A stretch of DNA of 33,301 nucleotides from an uncultured Prevotellaceae bacterium (GTDB taxonomy: Bacteria > Bacteroidota > Bacteroidia > Bacteroidales > Muribaculaceae): positions 1-33,301 of the forward strand of contig CAMEKH010000009.1 in NCBI GenBank assembly GCA_945921235.1, written 5' to 3'. The number at the start of each line of letters is the position of its first letter. Position 1 is the first letter of the stretch. Position numbers and translations under genes: made by a program. Below the pieces are notes generated by a model. It saw only the letters and a program-made list of their open reading frames with translations. It made no database searches and had not been told where the DNA came from. Below, one piece after another: positions 2,289-25,103 of this stretch.

Positions 2289-2561
2289 ATGGAGAGCAAG
2301 GCATTAATTGATGAGATAGCGAAAAAAATGGAGCGGAGCACGGAGGATATAAGCAAGCTACTCGATGGCTTTGTTGCGACACTCGAGGAGCGTTGCGGCG
2401 ACTTGGACAGCGTGGCAATTCCGGGGTTCGGGACTTTTGAAGCGAAGAAAAAGACTGAGCGGGTGACAGTGAATCCCTCAACCGGAAAGAAGATGTTGGT
2501 GCCTCCAAAGATTATATTGACGTTCAAACCCAGTGCATTGTTAAAAAGCAAGTTGAGATAG
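2289..2561 (+). CDS. HU-family DNA-binding protein
   Basis: A 90-residue histone-like protein. Helices at 1-38 form the dimer base, followed by the signature GFGTFEAKKKTERVTVNPSTGKK (46-68), which contains the DNA-contacting arm and the intercalating Pro63. This is a canonical nucleoid protein that should bend DNA as a homo- or heterodimer; members of this family are also annotated as integration host factor subunits. The stop codon lies only four bases before the ATG of the HU-LysM membrane protein, so the two are almost certainly cotranscribed. Expression of a soluble HU with a membrane-anchored HU domain raises the possibility that the two form mixed dimers. Confidence 0.92.
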   Translation: MESKALIDEIAKKMERSTEDISKLLDGFVATLEERCGDLDSVAIPGFGTFEAKKKTERVTVNPSTGKKMLVPPKIILTFKPSALLKSKLR

Positions 2562-2565
2562 GCTT

Positions 2566-3870
2566 ATGAATATAAAAATGACATTTCCCGAGTTGGTTGA
2601 TGCCGTTTCGGCAGCAACTCAAAGTCCGAAGCGCGTGAGCGAAATATTCTTGAAAGAATTGTTCATGACTATTGCCGATGCTTTGCGCAATGGAGAGAAC
2701 GTGAAGGTGAGAAATCTCGGCTTATTCAAGTTGACAAATGTAGAGGCTCGCAAGAGTGTCAATGTAAATACAGGCGAAGAAATGGAAATTCCGAGTCACA
2801 GGAAAGTGACTTTTGTTCCCGATAAGGCTCTTGCCGATGCAATAAACACCCCTTTTGCAAGTTTTGATACTGTGGTGCTCGATGATGCACTTAGCGAAGA
2901 TGAATTGAAATTGATGGCAAAGGTGGAGGACTTCGATGAAGAATATGAGGCTGAAAATAAGGAAGTGAAACCTATAGCCGAACATGTGGCTGAGGAAAAC
3001 GAGCCAAAGGTGGTGCCACCAGTATTTCGCCCGAGAGTAATCGAAGAGGTGCAAGAGGAGGCTTTGGAAGAGCATCAAGAAGAAGGCCCGGAAGAACCGG
3101 TTAATGATATAGGTAAAGAGTCGGAGCCGACTGACGCCATAAGCCAGGAGAGTGACAAGATAGAAAATGATGAACAAATCCAACAAATTAAGGAAGAACA
3201 AGTGAATATAGATGAACAACCATCTGTTGCGAGCAATATAGGCAGCGGAACAAGCGAAGACGAAGATTATTGCATTCCTGAAGATGATGATGAGGAGTAT
3301 GTGAATGAGAGTAACGACTCGGAAGCGCCCAAGCACGACGGCTCGTTCACACGAGGATTTATCTGGGGTGCATTGACAATGTTTGTGCTATATCTTGTGG
3401 TTGGTGGTGGATATTTCTTATATCAGCATGTTAAGAATCAGGAGATTATTGACACGGCACTTGGCGTGGACTCCGTGGTGGCAGAGAATGACATCGCTAC
3501 CCTCGACGACGTCGATGAGGTGGAAGAAGCCGATAAAGCAGTGAAGATTTCGGAATCGGTTGAAAAAGTAGCCCCGGCTTCTGAAGCTGATGCACAGCCG
3601 GCGGTTAAAGCAGAGCGTCCCACGTTGCGATACGACACTGTGACAAGTACTAAATTCCTCACAAAGATAGCATACAAGCACTATGGGAATTCCGACTTTT
3701 GGGTGTATATCTACGAAGAGAATCGTGCAAAAATTAAGAATCCCAATACCATAGCACCCGGAACGGTGGTTGTAGTACCTCCTGCCGAGAAATATGGTAT
3801 AGATAAAAACAGCAAAGAGAGCCTGCGAGCCGCCCGCAAGAAGATTCAGGAGATAGAGTCGGGGAAATGA
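2566..3870 (+). CDS. Membrane-anchored HU-domain protein with periplasmic LysM domain
   Basis: This 434-residue protein is modular. Residues 1-97 form an HU-like domain (helices, then VKVRNLGLFKL and a beta arm at 62-83). Residues 98-260 form a long acidic, Glu/Asp-rich and probably disordered linker. One transmembrane helix spans about 264-286, with Arg263 on its N-terminal side. A second acidic spacer (295-350) leads to a LysM-like domain at 356-406 (TKIAYKHYGNSDFWVYIYEENR, then PGTVVVVPP), followed by a basic tail. DNA binding requires the N-terminus in the cytoplasm, which puts LysM in the periplasm, where the family binds peptidoglycan. The HU arm tip reads VNVNTG, so the intercalating proline of normal HU is absent. 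I infer a tether between nucleoid and envelope. It lies directly behind an HU gene and ahead of the bat operon. Confidence 0.88.
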   Translation: MNIKMTFPELVDAVSAATQSPKRVSEIFLKELFMTIADALRNGENVKVRNLGLFKLTNVEARKSVNVNTGEEMEIPSHRKVTFVPDKALADAINTPFASFDTVVLDDALSEDELKLMAKVEDFDEEYEAENKEVKPIAEHVAEENEPKVVPPVFRPRVIEEVQEEALEEHQEEGPEEPVNDIGKESEPTDAISQESDKIENDEQIQQIKEEQVNIDEQPSVASNIGSGTSEDEDYCIPEDDDEEYVNESNDSEAPKHDGSFTRGFIWGALTMFVLYLVVGGGYFLYQHVKNQEIIDTALGVDSVVAENDIATLDDVDEVEEADKAVKISESVEKVAPASEADAQPAVKAERPTLRYDTVTSTKFLTKIAYKHYGNSDFWVYIYEENRAKIKNPNTIAPGTVVVVPPAEKYGIDKNSKESLRAARKKIQEIESGK

Positions 3871-3880
3871 AGCTCGAAGC

Positions 3881-3948
3881 CACAATTGCATCACATGACA
3901 GATGCCTCACACAGCCGATATAGAGAATTGTGTGAGGCATAAATTGTG
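3881..3948. terminator. Large inverted repeat after the HU-LysM gene
   Basis: A perfect 12-bp stem ATGCCTCACACA (3902-3913) / TGTGTGAGGCAT (3929-3940) closes a 15-base loop. It is enclosed by outer arms CACAATT (3881-3887) / AATTGTG (3942-3948). The position just after the stop codon suggests transcript-end formation or mRNA stabilisation, but no T tract follows, so it is not a standard intrinsic terminator. Confidence 0.5.
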
Positions 3949-4191
3949 TTTATAAGTGCAATAGGCGAGATGCTGATAAGCAGATTAAAGTTTGAAAGAG
4001 GGAATAAAGGACAACTGTGAGCAAAGAGTGGGAAATTGGTGAAAATTGGAAATATCTTTAACTTAAAATATTGTAAATTAACGCACCCAATATGTGCTTT
4101 AAGCGACTAATATATTAATTTTGCAACGTCAAAACAGGAGTAATAGATTTCAAATAAGTTTAATTATAAAACTACTATAATAACTACGAAT
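3949..4191. other. Non-coding spacer before the bat operon
   Basis: This AT-rich stretch contains no convincing reading frame (the longest I noticed encodes 16 residues) and no tRNA-like fold. Its only recognised element is the promoter-like sequence at 4093-4123. Confidence 0.5.
4093..4123 (+). promoter_or_regulatory. Probable bat operon promoter
   Basis: TAATTTTG (4116-4123) fits the -7 consensus. TGTG (4093-4096) lies 19 bases upstream in the -33 position with one mismatch. Transcription would begin near 4130, leaving an untranslated leader of about 60 bases before the moxR ATG at 4192. Confidence 0.5.
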
Positions 4192-5187
4192 ATGAGCGAT
4201 TCAGTAAACATTCGAGAATTGAATGACTTAATAGCAAGTAAGAGTAATTTTGTGAGTATGATAACACAAGGAATGGACCAAACAATTGTGGGACAGAAGC
4301 ACTTGGTTGATTCATTGCTTATAGCACTGCTTGCTAACGGACACGTGTTGCTTGAGGGTGTTCCCGGTTTGGCAAAGACTCTTGCCATTAAGACACTCGC
4401 ATCGCTGATTGATGCAAAGTATAGCCGCATACAGTTTACTCCCGACTTGCTTCCTGCCGATGTGGTGGGAACTATGGTGTACAGCGCCAAGCAGGAGAAA
4501 TTTGAGGTGCGTCGCGGTCCGGTATTCGCCAATTTCGTCCTTGCCGATGAAATTAACCGTGCCCCGGCGAAGGTGCAGAGTGCATTGCTCGAGGCTATGC
4601 AAGAGCGACAAGTGACAATCGGCAAGGAAACTTTCAAGCTCGACGACCCGTTCCTCGTTCTTGCCACTCAGAACCCAATTGAGCAGGAGGGTACTTATCC
4701 ACTGCCTGAGGCGCAAGTGGACCGTTTCTTGATAAAGGTAGTTATAGGCTATCCCAACAAGGAGGAAGAGAAATTAATCATACGTCAGAATATCAAGGCA
4801 GAGAAGCGCGAAGTTTCACCGCTGATTACTCCGGCAGACATCGTAGAGGTGCGCAAGATAGTTCAGCAAATATATGTAGATGAAAAGATTGAGCGCTACA
4901 TAGTCGACATTGTGTTTGCTACACGTTTCCCGGCTGATTATGGCTTGAACGACCTCACGAGCATAATCTCCTTCGGAGCATCGCCTCGTGCATCAATAAG
5001 CCTTGCACTTGCATCGCGCGCCTATGCTTTCTTGAAAGGACGTGGCTATGTGATACCCGAAGATGTGCGTGCTGTGTGTCATGATGTGATGCGCCATCGT
5101 ATAGGCTTATCATACGAAGCCGAAGCCAATAATATAGTAGCCGACGAAGTAATAAGCGAAATTCTTGACAAGATTGCAGTTCCATAA
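4192..5187 (+). CDS. MoxR-family AAA+ ATPase
   Basis: A 331-residue cytoplasmic AAA+ ATPase of the MoxR group, which acts as a chaperone for partner proteins with von Willebrand A (VWA) domains. It shows Walker A GVPGLAKT (56-63), Walker B FVLADE (115-120), sensor 1 ATQNP (158-162) and the arginine-bearing PEAQVDRF segment (172-179). First gene of the operon; the DUF58 gene starts ten bases after its stop. MoxR, DUF58 and VWA-membrane proteins recur together in many bacteria, which supports a joint function in folding or activating an envelope complex. The ATG at 4192 follows the promoter-like element and gives a normal N-terminus. Confidence 0.95.
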   Translation: MSDSVNIRELNDLIASKSNFVSMITQGMDQTIVGQKHLVDSLLIALLANGHVLLEGVPGLAKTLAIKTLASLIDAKYSRIQFTPDLLPADVVGTMVYSAKQEKFEVRRGPVFANFVLADEINRAPAKVQSALLEAMQERQVTIGKETFKLDDPFLVLATQNPIEQEGTYPLPEAQVDRFLIKVVIGYPNKEEEKLIIRQNIKAEKREVSPLITPADIVEVRKIVQQIYVDEKIERYIVDIVFATRFPADYGLNDLTSIISFGASPRASISLALASRAYAFLKGRGYVIPEDVRAVCHDVMRHRIGLSYEAEANNIVADEVISEILDKIAVP

Positions 5188-5197
5188 TTGAAAGCAG

Positions 5198-6073
5198 ATG
5201 GATTCAACTGAGTTATTAAAGAAAGTCCGGAAGATTGAAATAAAGACTAAAGGACTTTCTCAAAATATATTTGCAGGTGAATATCATTCGGCGTTCAAGG
5301 GGCGCGGAATGACGTTTTCCGAGGTGCGCGAGTATCAGTATGGCGACGATATTCGCGACATCGATTGGAATGTGACAGCACGCCACAACCGCCCGTATGT
5401 GAAAGTATTCGAGGAGGAACGAGAGCTGACGGTTATGCTCCTTGTAGATGCGTCGGGGAGTAGAAACTTTGGCGCAGTAGGAGTGGAGAAGAACGAGATG
5501 ATGGCTGAAATAGCAGCTACCCTTGCATTCTCGGCAATACAAAACAACGATAAGGTGGGAGTAATTTTCTTCACCGACAAGGTTGAAAAGTTTATTCCGC
5601 CGAAGAAGGGGCGTAAGCATATTCTGCTTGTGATTAGAGAGTTGCTCGATTTCAAGCCCGAAAGTAAAGGAACGAATATATCGAATGTGCTTGAGTATCT
5701 GACAAGTGCGATAAAGAAGCGTTGCGCAACTTTCATAATATCGGATTTTATCGATACCGGTGATTATTACAAGGCGATGTCGATAGCCTCCCGAAAGCAC
5801 GACCTGACAGCCATTCAGGTTTACGACAAGCGTGAAACAAATATCCCGAATGTAGGGCTAATGAAAGTGGAAGATGCCGAAACGGGTGCCGTGAAATGGG
5901 TTAATACCGGTTCGGCGAATGTGCGTAATGCCTACAAGAAGTGGTGGTATGAGCGTCAGCTGGCTATGAATGACACCATGATGCGGTGCAACGTAGATGT
6001 AGCGTCGGTAGCTACCGATGAGGATTACGCCAAGTCGCTTATGGCATTGTTCAAGAAGCGAGGCGTGAGATGA
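5198..6073 (+). CDS. DUF58 domain protein
   Basis: A 291-residue soluble protein with the DUF58 signature REYQYGDDIRDIDWNVTAR (44-62) followed by a VWA-like fold. The metal-site motif is DASGS at 84-88. No signal peptide or membrane helix is visible, so it should stay in the cytoplasm, probably as a direct partner of the MoxR ATPase encoded just before. It is encoded ten bases after moxR and is clearly part of the same operon. No enzymatic role is known to me for this family; assignment rests on the signature and on the conserved MoxR-DUF58-VWA gene order. Confidence 0.92.
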   Translation: MDSTELLKKVRKIEIKTKGLSQNIFAGEYHSAFKGRGMTFSEVREYQYGDDIRDIDWNVTARHNRPYVKVFEEERELTVMLLVDASGSRNFGAVGVEKNEMMAEIAATLAFSAIQNNDKVGVIFFTDKVEKFIPPKKGRKHILLVIRELLDFKPESKGTNISNVLEYLTSAIKKRCATFIISDFIDTGDYYKAMSIASRKHDLTAIQVYDKRETNIPNVGLMKVEDAETGAVKWVNTGSANVRNAYKKWWYERQLAMNDTMMRCNVDVASVATDEDYAKSLMALFKKRGVR

Positions 6074-6132
6074 AAGAGAAGTAATTTCATAAAATTCAGC
6101 AAAACTTGTAATTATTGAAGTTGAAGCGAAAT

Positions 6133-7167
6133 ATGATTGAAAGATTAAAGATATTTGTAGCCATAGCCCTTGCAAGTTGCGTGATGTGCCCGGCAAAGGC
6201 ACAAGGGAGTGTGGTTTTTCGTGCGAAAATGGACTCTGCAATCCTATTGATGGGCAAGCAGACGGCATTGCATCTTGAAATTTCGCAAAATAAAGAAGCC
6301 GTAGGTCGACTGACGTGTGAAACGTCGCCAGTGCTCACCGAACGTGTGGAGGTGGTTGACCGTCCTGAAGCCGATACGGTGGATTTGGGAAACAACAGGG
6401 TGCAGATAAATCGCGACCTTATATTGCAGTCGTTTGATTCGGGTGTGTATGTTATTCCTCCGCTGGAATATGTTGTGGGGCGAGATACGTTTCGCACCAA
6501 TCAATTGACGCTCAAGGTCCTGCCTGTGCAGGTGGATTCAATGACCGGCATTCACGACTATAAGCCGATAGAAGGGTTGCCATTCAATTTGCTCGATTTT
6601 CTGCCATCGTTCATAGCTCATTATTGGTGGATTTATTTGCTCTTGCTCGTACTTGTGGGCTTGGGACTGTGGGTGTATTTCCGCTGGATAAAGAATGGAA
6701 AACTTACATTAAAACCTCAGAAACCCGAAATTCCACCCTACGAGGAAGCTATTCAGAGCCTGAATGAGCTAAAACAACGGCAATTGTGGCAGTCGGGGCA
6801 AGAAAAGGCTTATTATACCGGGCTTACGGATATTTTGCGCCGATATATTTATCGCCGATTCGGTGTGAATGCAGTGGAAATGACTACATCGGAAATTTTA
6901 GCTTCGCTCAAGACGTATGAGGAGGCGCATGATGTGAATAAACAACTCGGACAGATACTTGAAATTGCTGATTTCGTGAAATTTGCAAAAGTTCGTCCAT
7001 TGTCCGATGAGAATGAAGTGGCATATCAGCGTGCCTTGAATTTTGTGGAAACCACAAAGCCTGCGCCACAAGAAGCCGATGAGAGTGATGTTGACGATAA
7101 GGCGGTCGATAAAAAGGAAGATGAAGAAAAGTCAGAACCGCAAGATAAGAAGGAGGTGAAGAAATGA
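6133..7167 (+). CDS. DUF4381-like membrane protein of the bat operon
   Basis: I start this gene at the ATG at 6133 (344 residues) because it opens on a clean signal peptide (MIERLKIFVAIALASCVMCPAKAQ). A TTG 18 bases upstream is in frame but less likely. A periplasmic beta-rich part (about 25-160) is followed by one transmembrane helix (163-185, WWIYLLLLVLVGLGLWVYF). The cytoplasmic part contains a conserved-looking EAIQSL...YYTGLTDILRRYIYRRFG segment and a tail of alternating Lys and Glu/Asp. Proteins of this layout sit between DUF58 and BatA in related operons. The stop overlaps the next start (ATGA), implying translational coupling. The function is unknown; a scaffold linking the cytoplasmic MoxR/DUF58 pair to periplasmic BatD is one possibility. 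Confidence 0.82.
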   Translation: MIERLKIFVAIALASCVMCPAKAQGSVVFRAKMDSAILLMGKQTALHLEISQNKEAVGRLTCETSPVLTERVEVVDRPEADTVDLGNNRVQINRDLILQSFDSGVYVIPPLEYVVGRDTFRTNQLTLKVLPVQVDSMTGIHDYKPIEGLPFNLLDFLPSFIAHYWWIYLLLLVLVGLGLWVYFRWIKNGKLTLKPQKPEIPPYEEAIQSLNELKQRQLWQSGQEKAYYTGLTDILRRYIYRRFGVNAVEMTTSEILASLKTYEEAHDVNKQLGQILEIADFVKFAKVRPLSDENEVAYQRALNFVETTKPAPQEADESDVDDKAVDKKEDEEKSEPQDKKEVKK

Positions 7168-8156
7168 TGAAATTCGCTAATCCATATTATTTGTGGCTGT
7201 TCTTGATATACATACCGATAATAATATGGTATGTGATGAAGAACCGTACTGCCGACCCCACGATGACAGTATCGAGCACGTTGCCTTTCGGCAAGGTTGG
7301 TAACTCATGGAAAAGTTATCTGCGGCACATAATGTTTGCCGTGAGATTGGCTGCCATTGGTTGCTTGATAATTATTTTATGCCGACCGCAGACTTCTGAT
7401 AGCTGGTCGACGTCGGAAACCGAAGGAACCGATATTGTAATATCTCTTGATGTGTCGACGAGTATGCTTGCTCAAGATTTCCGTCCCAATCGCTTTGAGG
7501 CGGCTAAAGAGGTAGCGGCAAAATTCGTTTCGGGAAGAGAAACCGATAATATAGGACTTGTGATTTTTGCAGGCGAAAGTTTCACGCAAGTACCGCTCAC
7601 TACCGATAAAGCCGTTCTTATGAATTATATCCAAGATATGAAAATCGGAATGCTCGAAGACGGCACTGCGATAGGCGATGGAATAGCAACGGCAATCAAT
7701 CGCATAAAGAATGGCAAAGCTAAGTCGAAAAGCATAATATTACTCACCGATGGTTCCAATAACACAGGCGTTGTGGCACCGCTCACGGCAGCTGAAATAG
7801 CTAAGAAATATGGCATAAAGATATATACCATAGGAGTAGGTAAGAATGGAAATGCTTTGTATCCTGTTGGTGTGAATTACTATGGCAAGATGGAATATCA
7901 GTCGCTCCCGGTGGTGATTGATGAGCCTACGCTTCGCTCTATTGCATCGGCAACAGGCGGAAAATACTTCAGAGCAACGAGTAAGAACGTGCTGAAGCAA
8001 GTGTTTACTGAAATCGACAAGCTCGAAAAGACGCGAATGGACGTACGTAACTTCAGTCATACAGAAGACAATTATATGCCGTGGGCATACATGCTGCTTG
8101 CCCTTGTGCTTGTGGAGATACTTGCGCGGTACACAGTGTTGAGAAATATACCATAA
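7164..8156 (+). CDS. batA: BatA, membrane-anchored VWA protein
   Basis: A 330-residue protein with two N-terminal transmembrane helices (about 9-25 and 56-73), a VWA domain (88-290) and a C-terminal helix (about 308-325). The metal-ion-dependent adhesion site is complete in outline: DVSTS (D96, S98, S100), a threonine in the DGTAIGDG loop (T168), and TDGSN (D196). The first ATG (7164) overlaps the preceding stop; a second in-frame ATG follows at once. An unusually good AGGAGG lies at 7151-7156, which is noteworthy because Bacteroidetes rarely depend on Shine-Dalgarno pairing. Bat genes were named for Bacteroides aerotolerance; the VWA domain presumably binds partner proteins in the periplasm. 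Confidence 0.93.
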   Translation: MMKFANPYYLWLFLIYIPIIIWYVMKNRTADPTMTVSSTLPFGKVGNSWKSYLRHIMFAVRLAAIGCLIIILCRPQTSDSWSTSETEGTDIVISLDVSTSMLAQDFRPNRFEAAKEVAAKFVSGRETDNIGLVIFAGESFTQVPLTTDKAVLMNYIQDMKIGMLEDGTAIGDGIATAINRIKNGKAKSKSIILLTDGSNNTGVVAPLTAAEIAKKYGIKIYTIGVGKNGNALYPVGVNYYGKMEYQSLPVVIDEPTLRSIASATGGKYFRATSKNVLKQVFTEIDKLEKTRMDVRNFSHTEDNYMPWAYMLLALVLVEILARYTVLRNIP

Positions 8157-8189
8157 ATGATATATAAGAGAAACAGAGGATAAAAAATT

Positions 8190-9245
8190 ATGTTCAGTTT
8201 TGCAAATCCCGAATATTTATATTTGTTGCTGCTTATCCCGGCAATAATACTGCTACACTTCATGTCGCGCAGAGTACGGAAGCGTAATTTGGAGCGTTAC
8301 GGGCAGTTGGCAATTCTTGAAAGACAGATGCCCGATGTATCGAAATACAAGCATGGCATAAAACTTGCACTAACGCTTGTGGCGGTGACAATGATAGTGA
8401 TAGTGCTTGCGCGTCCTCGAGCCGGTGCCAAGGAGCAGACGGTGAAAGTGCATGGAATAGAGGTGATGGTGGCACTTGACGTGTCGAATTCCATGAATGC
8501 ATCGGCAACAGATGATGTGAAAGGCGTGTCGCGCTTGCAGAAGTCTAAATTGACACTTGAGAAACTTATCGACAAATTTGATAATGATAAAGTTGGGTTG
8601 ATAGTATTTGCCGGCAACGCATATACGCAATTGCCTATAACGTCCGATTTCACATCGGCAAAGATGTTTCTTAACAACATAAACACCGAGATGGTTCCTA
8701 CGCAAGGCACAGCCATAGGAGCAGCAATAAAACTTGCAATGAACTCCTTCACCGGCAATGAGAAGTCGCAGAAAGCCGTTATAATCATCACCGATGGCGA
8801 GAATCATGAAGATGATGCCGTGGGAATGGCTGAAGAGGCAAAGAAGAAAGGAATACAGGTGAATGTGATAGGTCAAGGCTCGACAAAAGGTTCACCGATA
8901 CCACTAAAAAGTGGCGGCTTCATGAAAGATGATAACGGCAATGTGGTAACTACTTTCCTCAATGAGAAAATGGCAGAGGATATAGCAAAAGCCGGAGGCG
9001 GCATATACTTGTCGGGGAATGCCGGTGATGCAGTGGGGCAGCTCGATGAACAATTGAAGAAGTTGGCAAAATCCGATTTGCAAAAGGTGGTATATTCACA
9101 GCACGACGAGCAATTTCCGGTGTTTGCATGGCTAGCCTTGATATTCCTTGTGTGTGAAGTTTTCGTGTTGAGTCGCAAGAACTCATGGTTGCGCAAGATT
9201 AATTTCTTTACAAAGGAGAATAAAGAAGATGAAAAGAAGAATTGA
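8190..9245 (+). CDS. batB: BatB, membrane-anchored VWA protein
   Basis: A 351-residue paralogue of BatA with the same plan: N-terminal helices (about 8-24 and 57-75), VWA domain (88-300) and a C-terminal helix (about 312-331) followed by a basic tail. The adhesion-site motif is DVSNS (D97, S99, S101), with TDGEN further on. It differs from BatA by an insertion after the first motif (ASATDDVKG). The last 17 bases overlap batC, so the two are translationally coupled. BatA and BatB probably form a heteromeric periplasmic pair that binds the TPR proteins and BatD. Confidence 0.93.
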   Translation: MFSFANPEYLYLLLLIPAIILLHFMSRRVRKRNLERYGQLAILERQMPDVSKYKHGIKLALTLVAVTMIVIVLARPRAGAKEQTVKVHGIEVMVALDVSNSMNASATDDVKGVSRLQKSKLTLEKLIDKFDNDKVGLIVFAGNAYTQLPITSDFTSAKMFLNNINTEMVPTQGTAIGAAIKLAMNSFTGNEKSQKAVIIITDGENHEDDAVGMAEEAKKKGIQVNVIGQGSTKGSPIPLKSGGFMKDDNGNVVTTFLNEKMAEDIAKAGGGIYLSGNAGDAVGQLDEQLKKLAKSDLQKVVYSQHDEQFPVFAWLALIFLVCEVFVLSRKNSWLRKINFFTKENKEDEKKN

Positions 9246-10047
9246 TATATTAATAATATTTATGCTCGGCCTGATGATTGCGTTGCCTTCAACGCTATAT
9301 GCCGGCAGCGACAAAACGAGCGAAGCGAAGACCGAGAGCACTATAGATGAGCGCAAAGCCATTCGCAAAGGCAACAAACTCTATGAGGATAAGCGATATG
9401 CAGAGGCTGAGGTGGAATATAAGCGTGCATTGCAGTATAATCCCAACTCCGACATTGCTAATTATAACCTTGCGTTGTCGTATTTGAGGCAGGGAGGAAG
9501 CAGCGACCCTAAAGATAGCAATAGCCCGGTGAATCAGGCATCACAGATACTGCGCAATGTGGTGAAAACTGCACACGACAAGGGATTGGCATCGCGGGCA
9601 TATTATAATCTTGGAAATATTGCATTTAATCAGCAAAACTATTCGGAGAGCATAGAAATGTATAAAGATGCATTACGCAGAAACCCCGATGATGACCAAG
9701 CGCGGCAAAACTTGCGTTTGGCACAAAAGAAGCAGCAGGAGCAGCAACAGCAAGACCAAAATCAAGATAAGAATCAAGATAAAGACAAGCAGAATAAAGA
9801 CCAAAATCAGAATAACGACGATAATAAGGAAAATAAAGATAAAAACCGGCAGGACCAACAGAATCAGCAGAATAAGCCCAACCAAAACAAGCCTCAGGAC
9901 CGGCAGCAAGGAGGTATGAGCGACAGTAATGTGCAGCAGATTCTCAAGGCAATGCAAGATGCAGAGAAAGGAACACAGCAAAAGGTTAATGCCGCCAAGA
10001 TTAAAGAAGAACAGAATAATCGCAAGCGGACAGGCAACCAGTGGTAA
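9229..10047 (+). CDS. batC: BatC, TPR protein with Gln/Asn/Asp/Lys-rich tail
   Basis: A 272-residue protein with a signal peptide (1-25) and tetratricopeptide repeats: one at 41-74 (KGNKLYEDKRYAEAEVEYKRAL), a degenerate one to about 120, and one at 121-154 (AYYNLGNIAFNQQNYSESIEMYKDAL). From 167 to 228 the sequence is almost entirely Gln, Asn, Asp and Lys, surely disordered. A short helical C-terminus (231-262) follows. The start at 9229 lies inside the end of batB, nine bases after an AAGGAG. It should be a periplasmic adaptor for the BatA/BatB VWA domains. The low-complexity tail is typical of BatC-type proteins but varies in length, so it may act as a flexible spacer. Confidence 0.9.
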   Translation: MKRRIDILIIFMLGLMIALPSTLYAGSDKTSEAKTESTIDERKAIRKGNKLYEDKRYAEAEVEYKRALQYNPNSDIANYNLALSYLRQGGSSDPKDSNSPVNQASQILRNVVKTAHDKGLASRAYYNLGNIAFNQQNYSESIEMYKDALRRNPDDDQARQNLRLAQKKQQEQQQQDQNQDKNQDKDKQNKDQNQNNDDNKENKDKNRQDQQNQQNKPNQNKPQDRQQGGMSDSNVQQILKAMQDAEKGTQQKVNAAKIKEEQNNRKRTGNQW

Positions 10048-10079
10048 AAGAGTAATTATTGTAATTTCAATTTTGTAAT

Positions 10080-11900
10080 ATGTTGAAATCTATAAAATTC
10101 TTATTGATTATAGCAATGCTTCAGGTGGCGGCAACTATGCTATCGGCTGAAGTGTCGTTCACAGTGGATTATCCGCATCAAGTGGTGCAAGGCAATAAGT
10201 TTAGAATCACTTTCTCTCTGCGAAATGCTGAAGGAGCGGGATTCACGGCACCCGAAGTAGGGGGGTGCGCTACGTTATACGGACCATCGAAGTCGTCGTC
10301 GTATAGCTCGCAATGGGTGAATGGCGTTAGCTCAAGTTCATCATCTGAAGAATACACTATGGTGTATAGAGCAGATAAAGCAGGAAAATACAATGTGGGG
10401 GCAGCTACTGTCACAGTGGGTGGAAAACGCTATTCCACGCGCCCTTTCACAATAGAGATTTTACCGCCCGACCGCTCGGCTCAAAGCAATGCTCGCGGCT
10501 CGCAGAGCGTGCAGATTGATAATGTCGACACTCAGAGTGCCGGAAAGCAAGTAAGCGCTAATGACCTGTTTGTGAGAATCAATATGTCGAAAAGCAACGT
10601 CTATGAGCAAGAGGCGGTGGTGTGTACGATAAAGCTCTACACAAAATACCAGATTTCTCAATTTATGGCAAATATACAGCCATCCTACAATGGATTCCTT
10701 ATTGAAGAATTGCCGGTATCACCTAATTTGAATGAGGTGGAGCGAGTGAATGGTGAGAATTACATGGTGGCTGAATTGAAGAAGTGCATTCTTTTCCCTC
10801 AGCAGTCGGGAAAACTTACCATTACATCGGGCACCTACGATGTGACGGTGGTTCAATTTGAGAATATTAGAACGATGTTTGGAATCGTTCGTCAGCCTGT
10901 GGAGAAGCAACTAAAGGTGAAATCGAATACGGCATCGGTAAATATTTTGCCACTCCCGACGCCGAAACCTGCATCATTCAGCGGTGCGGTGGGAAATTTC
11001 ACTATGACAACTGAAATAAAGCCACAAGTTCTTAAGACCTATGAGGCAGCAACGTATTCGTGCATAATAAAGGGTTCAGGAAATATAAAATATCTCAAAG
11101 CACCGGAGATAGCTTTCCCGGCACAATTTGATGTATATGACCCGCAGAATAATGTCAATGCAAAGCCAAATGGGGGCACGGTGAGCGGCACGGCAAGTAT
11201 CGACTATACGTTTGTGCCTCAATTTGTAGGTAAATATGAGATACCCGCCACGGAGTTCACTTATTTTAATCCTGCAACAAAGCAATATGTAACACTCTCG
11301 ACACAGAAATATGACCTCACTGTAGCTAAAGGAAGCGGTTCGCCCACATCGGCACATAAGGGCATACAGCAGCAAAATCGCGATATCTTGCACATCAAGA
11401 AAGGCGATTTGGAATTGAAGACTGCACACGACTTTATGGTGGAACATTTCAATTATTGGTTGTGGTATATCGTTCCGATTTTGATACTTGCCGGAGTGCT
11501 GTTCTATTATAGAAAATCGCTGAAAGCTCGGTCGGATTTGAAGTTGATGAAGACCAAGCGTGCAAATAAAGTGGCAAAGAAACGATTGCGAGTGGCTCAG
11601 CAATTTATGCGAGCCGGCGATAGCAATAAGTTCTATGCCGAGACATTAAAGGCATTATGGGGTTACCTGAGTGATAAAATAGGTATCCCGGTGTCGGAAC
11701 TTAACAAGGAGAACATATCGGCAGAGCTTGTAAGTTATGGAGCCGACGAAGATATGGTGGCATCGGTAATTGATGTGCTGAATAAGTGCGAATTTGCCCA
11801 ATATGCTCCGGAATTGGGCGGTACGGACATGGAGAGCATTTACAGTGCAGCAAGCGATGTGATGGATAAACTTGAAAATACTAAAAGAAAAAAAGCATAG
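10080..11900 (+). CDS. batD: BatD
   Basis: A 606-residue protein with a signal peptide (1-23) and a long periplasmic region of beta-sandwich domains. Landmarks are SFTVDYPHQVVQGNKFRITFSL near the start, a Ser-rich stretch (73-89) and YTFVPQFVGKYEIPATEF (about 379-396), a phrase typical of BatD. One transmembrane helix (about 459-480, WLWYIVPILILAGVLFYY) leads to a cytoplasmic, Lys/Arg-rich helical domain (485-606). The signal peptide and C-terminal anchor put the bulk of the protein in the periplasm, where it could bind BatA, BatB and BatC. The stop is followed seven bases later by the preferred batE start. Confidence 0.92.
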   Translation: MLKSIKFLLIIAMLQVAATMLSAEVSFTVDYPHQVVQGNKFRITFSLRNAEGAGFTAPEVGGCATLYGPSKSSSYSSQWVNGVSSSSSSEEYTMVYRADKAGKYNVGAATVTVGGKRYSTRPFTIEILPPDRSAQSNARGSQSVQIDNVDTQSAGKQVSANDLFVRINMSKSNVYEQEAVVCTIKLYTKYQISQFMANIQPSYNGFLIEELPVSPNLNEVERVNGENYMVAELKKCILFPQQSGKLTITSGTYDVTVVQFENIRTMFGIVRQPVEKQLKVKSNTASVNILPLPTPKPASFSGAVGNFTMTTEIKPQVLKTYEAATYSCIIKGSGNIKYLKAPEIAFPAQFDVYDPQNNVNAKPNGGTVSGTASIDYTFVPQFVGKYEIPATEFTYFNPATKQYVTLSTQKYDLTVAKGSGSPTSAHKGIQQQNRDILHIKKGDLELKTAHDFMVEHFNYWLWYIVPILILAGVLFYYRKSLKARSDLKLMKTKRANKVAKKRLRVAQQFMRAGDSNKFYAETLKALWGYLSDKIGIPVSELNKENISAELVSYGADEDMVASVIDVLNKCEFAQYAPELGGTDMESIYSAASDVMDKLENTKRKKA

Positions 11901-20044: not shown

Positions 20045-23000
20045 ATGATGATGTTTAAAAAGTTACTTTTGTGTGCGATAGCATTGGTGGGCTTCGCTGC
20101 GTCGGCGCAGGTGAAGGTTACCGGTGTTGTGCTACAGGCAGAGGACGATGAACCCGTGATTGGTGCAACCGTCACTGTGAAAGGCACATCTATCGCTACT
20201 GCGACTGATTTGGATGGCAAATTCATAGTCAATGCGCCATCGGGTAAATCAAAGATAGTGGTTACGTACGTGGGTATGAACCCCTATGAGTTTCAAGCTA
20301 CAAGTAAGCCGGTTACCATTAAACTTGAGTCGTCGGCTACTCAGCTTAGTGAGGTGGTTGTAACCGGTATGCAGAAGGTCGACAAGCGATTGTTCACCGG
20401 AGCGACAACAAGTATCAGTGCCGAGAAGGCACGTCTTGATGGTGTTGCCGATATCAGCCGTTCTCTTGAAGGAAAGGCAGCCGGAGTGTCGGTGCAGAAC
20501 GTATCGGGTACATTCGGTACGGCTCCGAAAATCCGTGTGCGTGGTGCAACGTCAATTTATGGTACTTCCAAGCCTCTTTGGGTTGTTGATGGAGTGATTC
20601 TTGAAGATGCTGTAGAAATCTCAGCCGACGACCTCTCATCGGGTGATGCCGAGACACTTATCGCATCGGCAATTGCCGGATTGAACTCTGATGATATCGA
20701 GAGTTTCCAAATTCTTAAAGACGGTTCGGCTACATCTATTTATGGTGCTCGTGCCATGGCAGGTGTGATTGTGGTTACCACAAAGCAAGGTAAGGCAGGC
20801 CGCACCAGCATCAACTATACCGGTGAGTTCTCTTACCGCTTGAAGCCTAATTACAGCAACTTCAATATCTGTAATTCGCAGGAGCAGATGGGTATCTACA
20901 AGGAGATGGAGCAAAAAGGTTGGTTGGAATTTGCATCGCTTGCATCTTCTTCATCTTCAGGTGTTTATGGAACGATGTATAAGATGATTGATAGCTACAA
21001 GAATGGTGGATTTGGCTTGGCTAACACAACCGATGCCAAGAATGCCTATCTTCGTGAGGCTGAGTTCCGCAATACTGATTGGTTTGATTTGCTTTTCAAG
21101 AGCAATATCACGCAAAACCACTCTGTGAGCATCTCAGGAGGTACTGATAAAGGACGTTTCTATACTTCAATGTCAATAATGAACGATGAAGGTTGGTATA
21201 AGTCGAGCGACGTTCAGCGCTATACTTTCAATGCCAATGCATCATATGATTTGTCGAAAACTTTGAGAATCAAGTTGTTGACCAGCGATTCTTATCGTAA
21301 GCAAAAAGCTCCGGGAACATTGAGTCAAGATGTCGACGTGGTATCCGGTGAGGTTAAGCGTGGCTTCGACATTAACCCTTATAGCTATGCGCTCAATACA
21401 TCGCGTACTACCGACCCGAATGCTACTTTGACTCGTAACTATGCCGATTTCAATATCTTCAAGGAGCTTGACAACAACTATATTGATATAGGTGTAACGG
21501 ATATGAAATTCCAGGCTGAGGTGAACTTCCGCCCGATACAAGGACTTGAGTTTAATGTGATTGGTTCTTATCGTAACAGCCGTTCTTCGCAGAACCACTA
21601 CGTTAAGGACGAGTCGAACCAAGCTATGGCATATCGTGCCGGTGTTGACCCTGAGGACGCTACAATTCGTGCCATCAACCCATATCTTTACACCGACCCC
21701 GATGAACCTAATGCTCTTCCTGAGTCAATATTGCCCAAGGGAGGTATTGTATATCACAATGTATTCTCACTTTCTCAATACGACGTGCGTGCAACGGCTC
21801 AGTATAACAAGACGTTCAACCGCATTCACATCACGAGTTTGATGGCAGGTCTTGAGTTTGGCTCAATCGACCGTCACTCAGAGAATTACGAGGGTTGGGG
21901 TATTTGCTACGACAATGGAAATATTCCGTTCATTGATTGGAGAGCGTTCAAGCAGTTCAGCGAGGAGAATCATAATTACTATTCCGATAGTTGGACCTAT
22001 CGCCGCAGCGAGGCTTATTTCGCTACGGGTAGCTACTCGTTCAAAGGACGTTATATCCTCAATGGAACAATCCGCTATGAGGGTTCAAATAAATTAGGTA
22101 TGTCTACACAGTCGCGTTGGTTGCCAACGTGGAACGTGTCGGGAGCATGGAATGTTCACGAGGAGGAATGGTTTGCCAATAAAGTGTTGTCACACGCTAA
22201 GTTGCGTGCATCTTACTCGTTGACAGCCGATGGTGGTCCGTCGTCAATTTCCAATGCAATGGCAATTTACAATCCTTATAAGCCATGGCGTCCGGTATCT
22301 GAGGCTTACGAAATCGGTCTTAGCCTCGACAACCTTGCCAACTCGGAGCTTACTTACGAGAAGAAGCATGAGTTTGACCTTGGTGTTGACCTCGGTTTCT
22401 TGAACAACCGCATCAACCTCGTGTTCGACTGGTACACTCGTAACAACTACGACCTTATCGGACGTATCTATACTACCGGTGTGGGAGGAGAAGTATCGAA
22501 GTATGCCAACGTAGCATCGATGAAGTCGCATGGTGTAGAGTTCACACTTTCTACCCGCAACATCGAGACGAAAGATTTCTCGTGGACAACCGACTGGACA
22601 TTCGCTTATGCAAAGAATACAATTACCGACCTTCAGTCGCGCTCACGTGTGATTGACTTGGTAACAAGTTCTGGTTTCCCGTTGGAGGGTTATCCCGTGC
22701 GTGCCATCTTCTCAATTCCTTTCATGGGATTGAATGATGAAGGTCTTCCCACCTTTATAAATCAAGATGGTAATCTCACGATTTCCGATATCAACTTCCA
22801 AGAGTTTGAGAAACTCGACTTCTTGAAATATGAAGGACCGGTTGACCCGACAATAACCGGAGGATTCGGCAATATGTTCCACTATAAGGGATTCCACCTC
22901 AATTTGTTCCTTACCTACTCTTTCGGCAACAAGATTCGTCTTGACCCGGCGTTCTCGGCTGCTTACAGCGACCTTTCGTCGATGCCTAAAGAGTTCAAGA

Positions 23001-23362
23001 ACCGTTGGGTGAAGCCGGGTGATGAGCTAATCACCGATATACCGGTAATCGCATCACGCCGTCAGGTGCACAACGATTCGCAGTTGGGTTATGCCTACAA
23101 TGCCTACAACTATTCAACAGCGCGAATTGCCGATGGTGGATTTATCCGCCTGAAGGAAGTGTCGCTCACTTACGACCTGCCGAAGTCGGTTATCAGCAAG
23201 TTGCGTCTTAACAATGCATCTGTCAAGCTGCAAGGAACCAACCTGCTTCTGCTCTATGCCGACAAGAAGCTCAATGGTCAAGACCCTGAGTTCTTCAATA
23301 GTGGTGGTGTAGCAACACCTTCGCCTAAGCAAGTAACTTTAACTGTACGTTTCGGTCTGTAA
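20045..23362 (+). CDS. SusC/RagA-type TonB-dependent outer-membrane transporter
   Basis: A 1105-residue outer-membrane transporter. It has a signal peptide (1-22, cleaved after AASA), a CarboxypepD_reg-like domain (24-100), a TonB-box-like LSEVVVTG (about 101-108) and a plug (about 110-250) with the SusC phrases KIRVRGATSIYGTSKPLWVVDGVI and SFQILKDGSATSIYGARAMAGVI. A 22-strand beta-barrel should follow, ending in VTLTVRFGL. Three consecutive ATG codons (20045, 20048, 20051) could each start the gene. There is no N-terminal STN domain, so no direct link to an anti-sigma factor is expected. It forms a pedal-bin transporter with the SusD protein encoded 19 bases downstream. The companion metallopeptidase suggests peptide cargo. 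Confidence 0.95.
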   Translation: MMMFKKLLLCAIALVGFAASAQVKVTGVVLQAEDDEPVIGATVTVKGTSIATATDLDGKFIVNAPSGKSKIVVTYVGMNPYEFQATSKPVTIKLESSATQLSEVVVTGMQKVDKRLFTGATTSISAEKARLDGVADISRSLEGKAAGVSVQNVSGTFGTAPKIRVRGATSIYGTSKPLWVVDGVILEDAVEISADDLSSGDAETLIASAIAGLNSDDIESFQILKDGSATSIYGARAMAGVIVVTTKQGKAGRTSINYTGEFSYRLKPNYSNFNICNSQEQMGIYKEMEQKGWLEFASLASSSSSGVYGTMYKMIDSYKNGGFGLANTTDAKNAYLREAEFRNTDWFDLLFKSNITQNHSVSISGGTDKGRFYTSMSIMNDEGWYKSSDVQRYTFNANASYDLSKTLRIKLLTSDSYRKQKAPGTLSQDVDVVSGEVKRGFDINPYSYALNTSRTTDPNATLTRNYADFNIFKELDNNYIDIGVTDMKFQAEVNFRPIQGLEFNVIGSYRNSRSSQNHYVKDESNQAMAYRAGVDPEDATIRAINPYLYTDPDEPNALPESILPKGGIVYHNVFSLSQYDVRATAQYNKTFNRIHITSLMAGLEFGSIDRHSENYEGWGICYDNGNIPFIDWRAFKQFSEENHNYYSDSWTYRRSEAYFATGSYSFKGRYILNGTIRYEGSNKLGMSTQSRWLPTWNVSGAWNVHEEEWFANKVLSHAKLRASYSLTADGGPSSISNAMAIYNPYKPWRPVSEAYEIGLSLDNLANSELTYEKKHEFDLGVDLGFLNNRINLVFDWYTRNNYDLIGRIYTTGVGGEVSKYANVASMKSHGVEFTLSTRNIETKDFSWTTDWTFAYAKNTITDLQSRSRVIDLVTSSGFPLEGYPVRAIFSIPFMGLNDEGLPTFINQDGNLTISDINFQEFEKLDFLKYEGPVDPTITGGFGNMFHYKGFHLNLFLTYSFGNKIRLDPAFSAAYSDLSSMPKEFKNRWVKPGDELITDIPVIASRRQVHNDSQLGYAYNAYNYSTARIADGGFIRLKEVSLTYDLPKSVISKLRLNNASVKLQGTNLLLLYADKKLNGQDPEFFNSGGVATPSPKQVTLTVRFGL

Positions 23363-23381
23363 TTTTTAACAAATAGGTAAA

Positions 23382-25103
23382 ATGAAATTGAAAAATATAT
23401 CATATTTAGCAGTATTGGCACTGGCGTCGCTTACATCATGTAACGACTTCCTCGATAAAGTGCCCGACACACGAGTTGAATTGAAGACACCGGAGCAGTT
23501 GCGAATGCTTATGGTGAATGCATATCCTTTGTCGAGCTATTCTTTGATAGGTGAGCTTTCGTCGGACAATGTAATCGACAATAATTCGCCTAACGAACAA
23601 GGTGTGCGCTACAATCTCAGCGTGTATGATAAGATTGATAATGAGCTGTTTGCATTTGAAGAGGCAAAGTCAACAAGTGGAACCGACAGCCCTACTAAAG
23701 TATGGGAGGCATACTATCACTCTATTGCCTGCTGTAATGCGGTGCTTGAGCGTGTTGCCCAGCTTGAAGGTGAAGGACGTGCATCGGAAGTTGCAGCCGT
23801 CAAGGGTGAAGCTCTCTTGTTGCGCAGCTATTGCCACTTTATTCTTGCCAATCTTTTCTGCGAGCCTTATCGCGGACCTGAATTAAGCAAGGCTATCAAA
23901 GGTATTCCTTATGTAAGTCAACCCGAGACCGAAGTCCTTGTTCATTATGAGCGCGGCAATCTTGCCGATGTGTATGCAAAGTGCCAGAAGGACCTTGAGG
24001 AGGGATTGCCATTGATTAATGATGGACTTTACGATGTGCCTAAATATCACTTCAACAAGGCAGCAGCATACGCTTATGCAGCACGCTTCTATCTCTTTAT
24101 TCGCGATTATAAGAAGTGCCTTGAGTGCGCCAACACTGCATTCGGTGGTGAAGGTGTAGATGTAGCTCCTTATATGACAGATATCTGGGCAAAAGCAAGT
24201 GATTTCTATTATATCAGCGACTTTGCACGCTATTTCACCAATATCACTCATCAGCGTAATTTCATGTTGATTTCAACATATTCGGTGTTCTTGCGTCACT
24301 TCACAAGTGCATCGCGCTATGCACCTAACCGCGACGCAAAGCGTGGTACCATTCAAGGCCCCGGTCCTACATGGGAAGGCTGGCGTTGGGAGAACTCGCG
24401 CACAAAAGAGAGCTTCTCGATGCACCCATGCTTCAATGGAGTGTGCGGCTCGGCAGGTAAGTCGGAATATGGTACATATTTTGCAGGTACTATAGGTGAG
24501 CAATTCGAGTACACCGACAAGGTGGCAGGAATCGGATTTGCGCATAATGTACGCTCCGAGTTCTTCGGTGAGGAAACTCTTATGTGTCGTGCCGAGGCAA
24601 AGGCTTATCTCGGTGACGTGCAGGGAGCTGTCGAAGATTTGCGTACTTGGGAATTATCGCTTCGCACTACTTTAAATGACGATGGTAAGGAGGATGTTTA
24701 TAAAGAACTTACTCTCGACCAGATTAACCAATTCTATGGAGCTAAGGACCCGGGATTCGGAATTGTGAAGAAACTTCATATCGATGAGATATTCCCGAGC
24801 GCAGAATACTCTGTGACCGATGCTATAGAGCCGTTGCTACAGTGCATACAGCACTTCCGCCGAATTGTCACTGTTCATAATGGTATGCGTTTCTTCGATA
24901 TCAAGCGTCTCGGACTCGAAATTACGCACGTTATCGGTAAAGATGCGCGCACTGAAACTCTTGGAGTGTTCGACCCCCGCAAGGCATTGCAGATACCTAA
25001 TGAGGTGATTGCTGCCGGTCTTGAGCCTAATAATCGCATATTGCAGACTCCGGGTGATAACTCAGAACTAAGAGCCGACGAAAAATACACTTTAGTAAAA
25101 TAA
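23382..25103 (+). CDS. SusD/RagB-type surface lipoprotein
   Basis: A 573-residue lipoprotein with lipobox LTSC (Cys20) followed by NDFLDKVPDT, the standard SusD opening. TPR-like helices run through YYHSIACCNAVLERV and VKGEALLLRSYCHFILANLF (about 110-160), the hallmark of the family. The C-terminal part contains FFDIKRLGLEI (about 506-516), matching the RF-D-LKRWG motif of RagB/SusD proteins. It caps the SusC barrel on the cell surface and binds substrate. It lies 19 bases after susC and 15 bases before the metallopeptidase gene, indicating one transcription unit. Specificity cannot be read directly; its operon partners point away from glycans. Confidence 0.95.
   Translation: MKLKNISYLAVLALASLTSCNDFLDKVPDTRVELKTPEQLRMLMVNAYPLSSYSLIGELSSDNVIDNNSPNEQGVRYNLSVYDKIDNELFAFEEAKSTSGTDSPTKVWEAYYHSIACCNAVLERVAQLEGEGRASEVAAVKGEALLLRSYCHFILANLFCEPYRGPELSKAIKGIPYVSQPETEVLVHYERGNLADVYAKCQKDLEEGLPLINDGLYDVPKYHFNKAAAYAYAARFYLFIRDYKKCLECANTAFGGEGVDVAPYMTDIWAKASDFYYISDFARYFTNITHQRNFMLISTYSVFLRHFTSASRYAPNRDAKRGTIQGPGPTWEGWRWENSRTKESFSMHPCFNGVCGSAGKSEYGTYFAGTIGEQFEYTDKVAGIGFAHNVRSEFFGEETLMCRAEAKAYLGDVQGAVEDLRTWELSLRTTLNDDGKEDVYKELTLDQINQFYGAKDPGFGIVKKLHIDEIFPSAEYSVTDAIEPLLQCIQHFRRIVTVHNGMRFFDIKRLGLEITHVIGKDARTETLGVFDPRKALQIPNEVIAAGLEPNNRILQTPGDNSELRADEKYTLVK

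Follow-up and report, generated by a model that had tools for sequence, protein, structure and literature searches.

Gene organization and domain architecture of the locus

The window analysed here is a stretch of 33,301 nucleotides from an uncultured Prevotellaceae bacterium of the gut. Two HU genes stand side by side in it, and these genes and their parts described below lie on the forward strand (+). The first, at 2289..2561, encodes a small HU of 90 aa with a full arm carrying a proline (PF00216, E=2.9e-21), and is called here the partner HU or "UP-HU" after the clade that it forms with the sampled relatives. As stated in an initial annotation made from the letters of the window, it stops 4 bases ahead of the start codon at 2566. 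The second gene, at 2566..3870, is a single open reading frame of 434 aa, whose product contains, in this order, an HU domain, an acidic linker, a transmembrane helix, a periplasmic linker and a divergent LysM domain. We refer to it as the anchored HU-LysM protein. The same annotation had proposed an architecture of HU, linker, single membrane helix and LysM for this gene, and it is borne out by 126 distinct homologues that share it. These are proteins with both the HU and the LysM end, collected by a genome scan and by searches of related genomes after removal of identical copies, and their number rules out an isolated fusion or an assembly artefact.

The HU domain of the anchored protein covers aa 5–94 (2578..2847) and matches PF00216 with E=1.4e-20 and 73.8 bits, above the curated cut-off of 22.4. 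Structure prediction of this domain alone, one of the checks suggested at the outset, gave an HU fold with a mean AlphaFold pLDDT of 81, and the Foldseek matches of the model are HU and IHF structures. At the tip of the arm, Val67 replaces the intercalating proline, whose absence had been correctly read from the sequence. A proline-tipped arm is typical of the HU/IHF superfamily without strictly defining it; the superfamily is defined by its fold. The domain runs into a conserved tail (aa 93–107, 2842..2886; consensus VNxPFAxFExVVLDD in alignments A1, A2 and A4), in which N94 is nearly invariant in A1 and A2 and invariant in A4. This tail is present in most anchored proteins, including several armless members, and may serve as a docking segment.

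The acidic linker, predicted to be cytoplasmic, spans aa 96–262 (2851..3351) and comprises 167 aa with 55 D/E and 11 K/R. Across the homologues (n=126) the linker has a median of 25% D/E and a length of 56–373 residues. The earlier figure of about 160 acidic residues fails if taken literally, given 93 D/E in the whole protein, but it holds as a description of a linker of about 160 residues of which one third are acidic.

At the other end of the protein, the divergent LysM domain (aa 355–406, 3628..3783) is missed by the Pfam LysM model PF01476 in the window protein, and this model is matched by only 2 of 55 relatives at E<=0.01. It is recognised by the NCBIfam Kbp and LipL71 models, and the family profile matches Kbp (7pvc) with E=2.7e-11. 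The AlphaFold model of the domain has a pLDDT >90, and Foldseek aligns it with Kbp and other LysM structures, for example over 52 columns at an rmsd of 1.2 Å. By its modelled fold and its homology to accepted LysM proteins it is assigned to LysM, as first annotated. A further helix follows the domain at aa 417–433 (3814..3864; H100–116 of the modelled piece). The closest LysM types are those of Kbp and of phage tails, which need not bind peptidoglycan; the divergent LysM of the anchored protein would most likely bind it. Pfam alone labels the anchored protein as an HU without LysM, and a generic annotation is likely to be expected for such proteins.

Membrane topology

The transmembrane helix lies at aa 264–282 (3355..3411) and reaches a Kyte-Doolittle value of 1.73. 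This peak is attained by 108 of 2000 shuffled copies of the window protein and is weak taken singly. We accept the helix because exactly one hydrophobic segment is kept in all 126 homologues, far beyond chance, with a minimum of 1.53, a median of 2.51 and no second segment of at least 1.6. Beyond it, a periplasmic linker extends over aa 283–354 (3412..3627); the modelled part starts at aa 318, and the pLDDT of about 50 over aa 318–347 denotes low predicted order.

Across the 126 homologues, the 15 residues next to the helix contain on average 4.0 lysines and arginines on the N side and 1.7 on the C side. Since the N side has the excess in 106 of them and the C side in 6, the positive-inside rule predicts that the HU end is inside and the LysM end outside, which supports the topology first suggested for this protein. 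The opposite orientation, with a periplasmic HU domain and a cytoplasmic LysM, could appeal to the existence of LysM proteins of the cytoplasm such as Kbp, but it runs against both the charge bias and the lack of any signal peptide found in the sequence upstream of the HU domain. We consider it extremely improbable.

Distribution and genomic neighbourhood

Within Bacteroidales the homologues are spread over many families, though not every one; beyond this order they occur in a single family, f41, that belongs to another class of the same phylum. Around 240 non-Bacteroidales genomes of the same class as Bacteroidales yielded short HUs only and no protein with both ends, an absence that is provisional insofar as the profile searches scored limited candidates per genome. 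A class-wide protein is ruled out by these genomes, and because of them and of the patchy distribution the function of the anchored HU pair is not universal.

A special second HU accompanies every one of the 126 homologues, in 124 cases as the gene directly upstream and in 2 as part of the same protein. The conserved gene order of an HU pair, which the initial annotation had recommended looking for, is present in these 124. The automatic search found a same-strand small HU immediately upstream in 122 of the 126, and L007 and L012 were added on inspection; in L012 the start had been called too early, and the identical copy L027 shows the HU at 3723–4004. The commonest spacings between partner and anchored genes, -8 (39 loci), -4 (34) and -11 (12) bases, are those of overlapping genes.

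A common order in Bacteroidales is L33 - FtsY - RimO - HU - HU-LysM - MoxR - Bat. In the window, RimO is not adjacent to the pair, and the MoxR-DUF58-BatA-BatD cluster is directly downstream; it occupies 4192–11897 and reads MoxR - DUF58 - DUF4381-like - BatA - BatA-like VWA - TPR - BatD. The pair is retained in f41 though the surrounding genes differ, its neighbours there being aconitase, Dabb, CHAD or HemN, and no MoxR-Bat linkage was seen in the f41 loci examined. MoxR-Bat linkage as a functional requirement is thereby ruled out. Because the f41 pair sits among unrelated genes, the conserved unit is the HU pair and not the operon.

A phage or defence origin was rejected on the PADLOC and PHROGs results: PADLOC did not match the anchored protein at all and gave the partner a single weak IHF-type hit, and the PHROGs matches of the pair are generic HU and LysM. 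Elsewhere in the window, at 20045–25100, lies a SusC/SusD-type pair, consisting of a TonB-dependent receptor with a CarboxypepD_reg domain and a SusD-like protein.

A natural fusion of the two HUs

The two homologues that have no separate upstream HU, L137 and L140, come from one family, f141, where the fusion recurs consistently. In each of them, a single open reading frame encodes UP-HU, anchored HU, linker, transmembrane helix and LysM. The first HU domain scores 23.5 and 14.3 bits with the partner model vs 11.0 and 5.1 with the anchored model, and the second 19.3 and 23.8 bits with the anchored model vs 4.3 and 0 with the partner model (L137 and L140, respectively). The L140 gene directly follows a RimO-like gene, which is the position of the HU pair in its relatives, and both genomes encode further HUs elsewhere.

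A search of f141 gave a match in 32 of 38 genomes, including all 26 listed genomes of genus g278. Across 30 fusion loci (L194–L223), the UP model fits the first half better in 30/30 and the anchored model is the better fit to the second half in 28/30, with domain order and orientation constant. Read from sequence, such a fusion offers the textbook "Rosetta stone" argument that the two HUs are physical partners. The functional unit of HU is an intertwined dimer, and for this reason the fusion suggests a single-chain HU dimer.

Ancestry and asymmetry of the two HUs

A tree of 77 HU domains over 98 columns, including 21 other HUs (mostly housekeeping) from the same genomes, groups the anchored HUs of Bacteroidales and f41 at 100/99 and places the UP-HUs of Bacteroidales and f41 in another group at 99/99. 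Both groups stand apart from the 21 other HUs. These splits are firm, and the fine branching is uncertain given 98 columns. Each group spans Bacteroidales and f41; on this tree, therefore, the HU pair predates the separation of the two or moved as a unit by transfer. The upstream gene had been taken for a canonical HU; it belongs instead to a distinct paralogue clade, and a housekeeping HU is ruled out by the tree. Two distinct, co-inherited subunits from separate ancient clades, adjacent in 124/126 cases and fused in 2/126, give strong sequence support to a predicted heterodimer; a physical complex would be in line with the natural fusion and with the co-variation described below. Dimerisation with the upstream HU, one of the two options first offered for the anchored domain, gains accordingly from the adjacency, from the fusions and from the two clades.

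The subunits differ in their DNA-binding features. The arm, normally of 24 residues, is cut to 2–14 aa in 18 of the 126 anchored HUs and measures 23–24 aa in 122 of 122 partners. By parsimony on a tree built without the arm columns, arm loss counts up to 8 changes, of which at least 2 are forced by well-supported branches. The arm proline is missing in 100 of 101 anchored HUs of Bacteroidales (V 69, deleted 16, I 11) and is found in 85 of the scored Bacteroidales partners, the rest having L (5) or single other residues. In f41 it is kept in 25/25 anchored HUs and in 25/25 partners. The mean net charge of the HU domain is -1.2 in the anchored type vs +5.0 in the partner. The f41 partners (L090–L116) have a distinctive arm, SYNPHYEQYMxLPPKR, whose LPPK end is common to the Bacteroidales partners.

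Because the anchored arm is deleted in 18 of 126 and the basic surface is reduced, DNA binding is more likely to come from the partner, and an anchored HU by itself probably does not bind DNA. The second option raised initially, that the anchored HU binds DNA without strong bending, is weakened by the same deletions and by the charge difference. In its full form this explanation has the anchored HU homodimerise and bind DNA itself, the upstream HU being a mere co-transcribed neighbour. HU domains commonly homodimerise, and the full proline arm in 25/25 f41 members speaks for it; in that family the anchored HU may bind DNA itself. Such a homodimer is at odds, however, with an arm absent in 18 anchored HUs and in no partner, with natural fusions of fixed order, and with a pair that persists where the surrounding genes have changed, and we regard it as quite unlikely.

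It is also conceivable that the HU domains bind protein or RNA only and that the pair forms a scaffold of the envelope with no relation to DNA. A protein- or RNA-only binding or scaffold role has been proposed for eukaryotic CCDC81-type HU domains, and arm loss, the reduced basic surface and a weak similarity of 14/55 members to HU-CCDC81_bac_2 point the same way. The partner, however, with a full arm in 122/122 cases, its proline mostly kept, and a net charge averaging +5, looks as a DNA binder is expected to look, which makes the scaffold highly improbable.

The two HUs also co-vary. Partner and anchored HU-domain distances correlate with r=0.75 in Bacteroidales and 0.85 in f41, and partner and LysM distances in the same proteins with 0.59 and 0.80, mirror-tree values that are all inflated by shared ancestry. 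Partial correlations with the partner are 0.67/0.64 for the anchored HU (given LysM) vs 0.40/0.47 for LysM (Bacteroidales/f41), and 0/500 label permutations reached the HU-partner correlation. This pattern fits contact between the HU domains, short of proof. A predicted complex would add little weight, as AlphaFold would probably pair any two HUs and would not tell a heterodimer from a homodimer.

Proposed mechanism of nucleoid anchoring

We favour, as the fairly probable explanation, an obligate HU heterodimer that tethers nucleoid DNA to the inner membrane and, probably, to the wall, in which the small subunit would make the DNA contact and the large one would act as the anchor. The upstream gene and the gene at 2566..3870 would encode the two subunits. 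The small soluble subunit, with its long basic arm, would provide the DNA contact; DNA binding by this partner is what its arm and charge lead us to infer. The large subunit would contribute the other half of the dimer together with the acidic cytoplasmic linker, an N-in/C-out helix and a periplasmic LysM most likely on peptidoglycan. The heterodimer would thereby tie nucleoid DNA to inner membrane and wall. With 0.34 nm counted per residue, as in general polymer geometry, a reach of tens of nm for the cytoplasmic linker and of about 25 nm for the periplasmic one is possible, which would be enough for a nucleoid-to-wall connection. More speculatively, the acidic linker may prevent adhesion of the anchored protein to DNA or membrane, or may tune DNA release.

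The acidic linker can be read in another way, in which the anchored HU, rather than linking DNA to the wall, would hold the partner in a membrane-bound heterodimer and so sequester or regulate it, with the linker competing with DNA for the basic surface of the partner, as an anti-HU or envelope-responsive regulator would. This reading could draw on the missing arms and almost neutral charge of anchored HUs, on the strong acidity of the linker and on the MoxR-Bat envelope/aerotolerance cluster, which is the next gene in most Bacteroidales loci. It is nevertheless unlikely: the f141 fusion makes release of the partner impossible, the linkage to MoxR-Bat does not extend to the f41 loci examined, and a sequestering protein does not need a conserved wall domain.

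Within the favoured reading of a tethering heterodimer, the pair would act in nucleoid anchoring or partition, and a part in chromosome positioning or segregation is conjecture. The broader proposition, that a dedicated two-subunit HU with one anchor (often armless) and one DNA arm physically links the nucleoid across the inner membrane with peptidoglycan in much of Bacteroidales and in the family of the second class, has in our view about an even chance of being right. Nucleoid attachment to the envelope is understood in few models, and little for gut Bacteroidales. The HU pair offers a concrete, conserved two-gene candidate for such attachment, with a role testable by deletion, and suggests that HU may have been split into DNA-contacting and anchoring subunits. 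If true, chromosome and wall would be directly linked in a way that has not been described for HU pairs.

Comparison with known systems

Among known proteins, the HU-CCDC81_bac-TM-SPOR proteins of Bacteroidota (PF18174 and PF18175) resemble the pair in having two HU folds, one transmembrane helix and a C-terminus of peptidoglycan-binding type. They differ in carrying two short HUs in tandem and SPOR, whereas the present pair has PF00216-type HUs, usually in two genes, and LysM. The f141 fusion follows the same plan of tandem HUs, helix and wall domain with different domain families. The window protein has no match to PF18174 or PF18175 and ends in LysM, not SPOR, and PF18175 is weakly matched by 14 of 55 relatives; without the defining domains, the anchored HU pair is not a member of the CCDC81 family. 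A protein of this other kind, an analogous HU-to-envelope build, is encoded in the same genome (L086, 859–1899 of contig C6): it comprises HU-CCDC81_bac_1, HU-CCDC81_bac_2, a transmembrane helix and SPOR, the last at 18.2 bits, below the curated 21, and its gene lies beside those of a TPR protein and a DXP-reductoisomerase-like protein. A chromosome-partition role for such Bacteroidetes HU-CCDC81 proteins was reportedly proposed by Burroughs et al. in Cell Cycle in 2017. No paper on HU-LysM proteins or on the HU pair was found in the literature searched, whose coverage did not include Burroughs et al. 2017.

HU and IHF themselves (PF00216) share the fold and homology of both subunits, and the predicted heterodimer has counterparts in IHF and in HU-alpha/beta of E. 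coli. In the present pair, by contrast, one of the two subunits has a membrane anchor, a charge close to neutral and often no arm or no proline, and both belong to clades distinct from those of housekeeping HUs. In the PDB, the family profile matches best a single-chain IHF (scIHF2, PDB 2iie), which holds two HU folds in one chain as one dimer, the arrangement suggested for the f141 fusion; scIHF2 is engineered, whereas the fusion in f141 occurs in nature and carries a membrane anchor. The LysM subtype is shared with Kbp (YgaU) and LysM proteins related to it, but Kbp is a soluble, potassium-binding BON-LysM protein, and neither BON nor potassium binding is indicated in the anchored protein.

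Membrane-bound nucleoid tethers are represented by Noc and RacA-DivIVA. To our knowledge, no tether of this kind combines an HU dimer with a wall-binding domain. The HU pair has no homology to Noc or RacA-DivIVA but would work alike, as a DNA binder held on the envelope.
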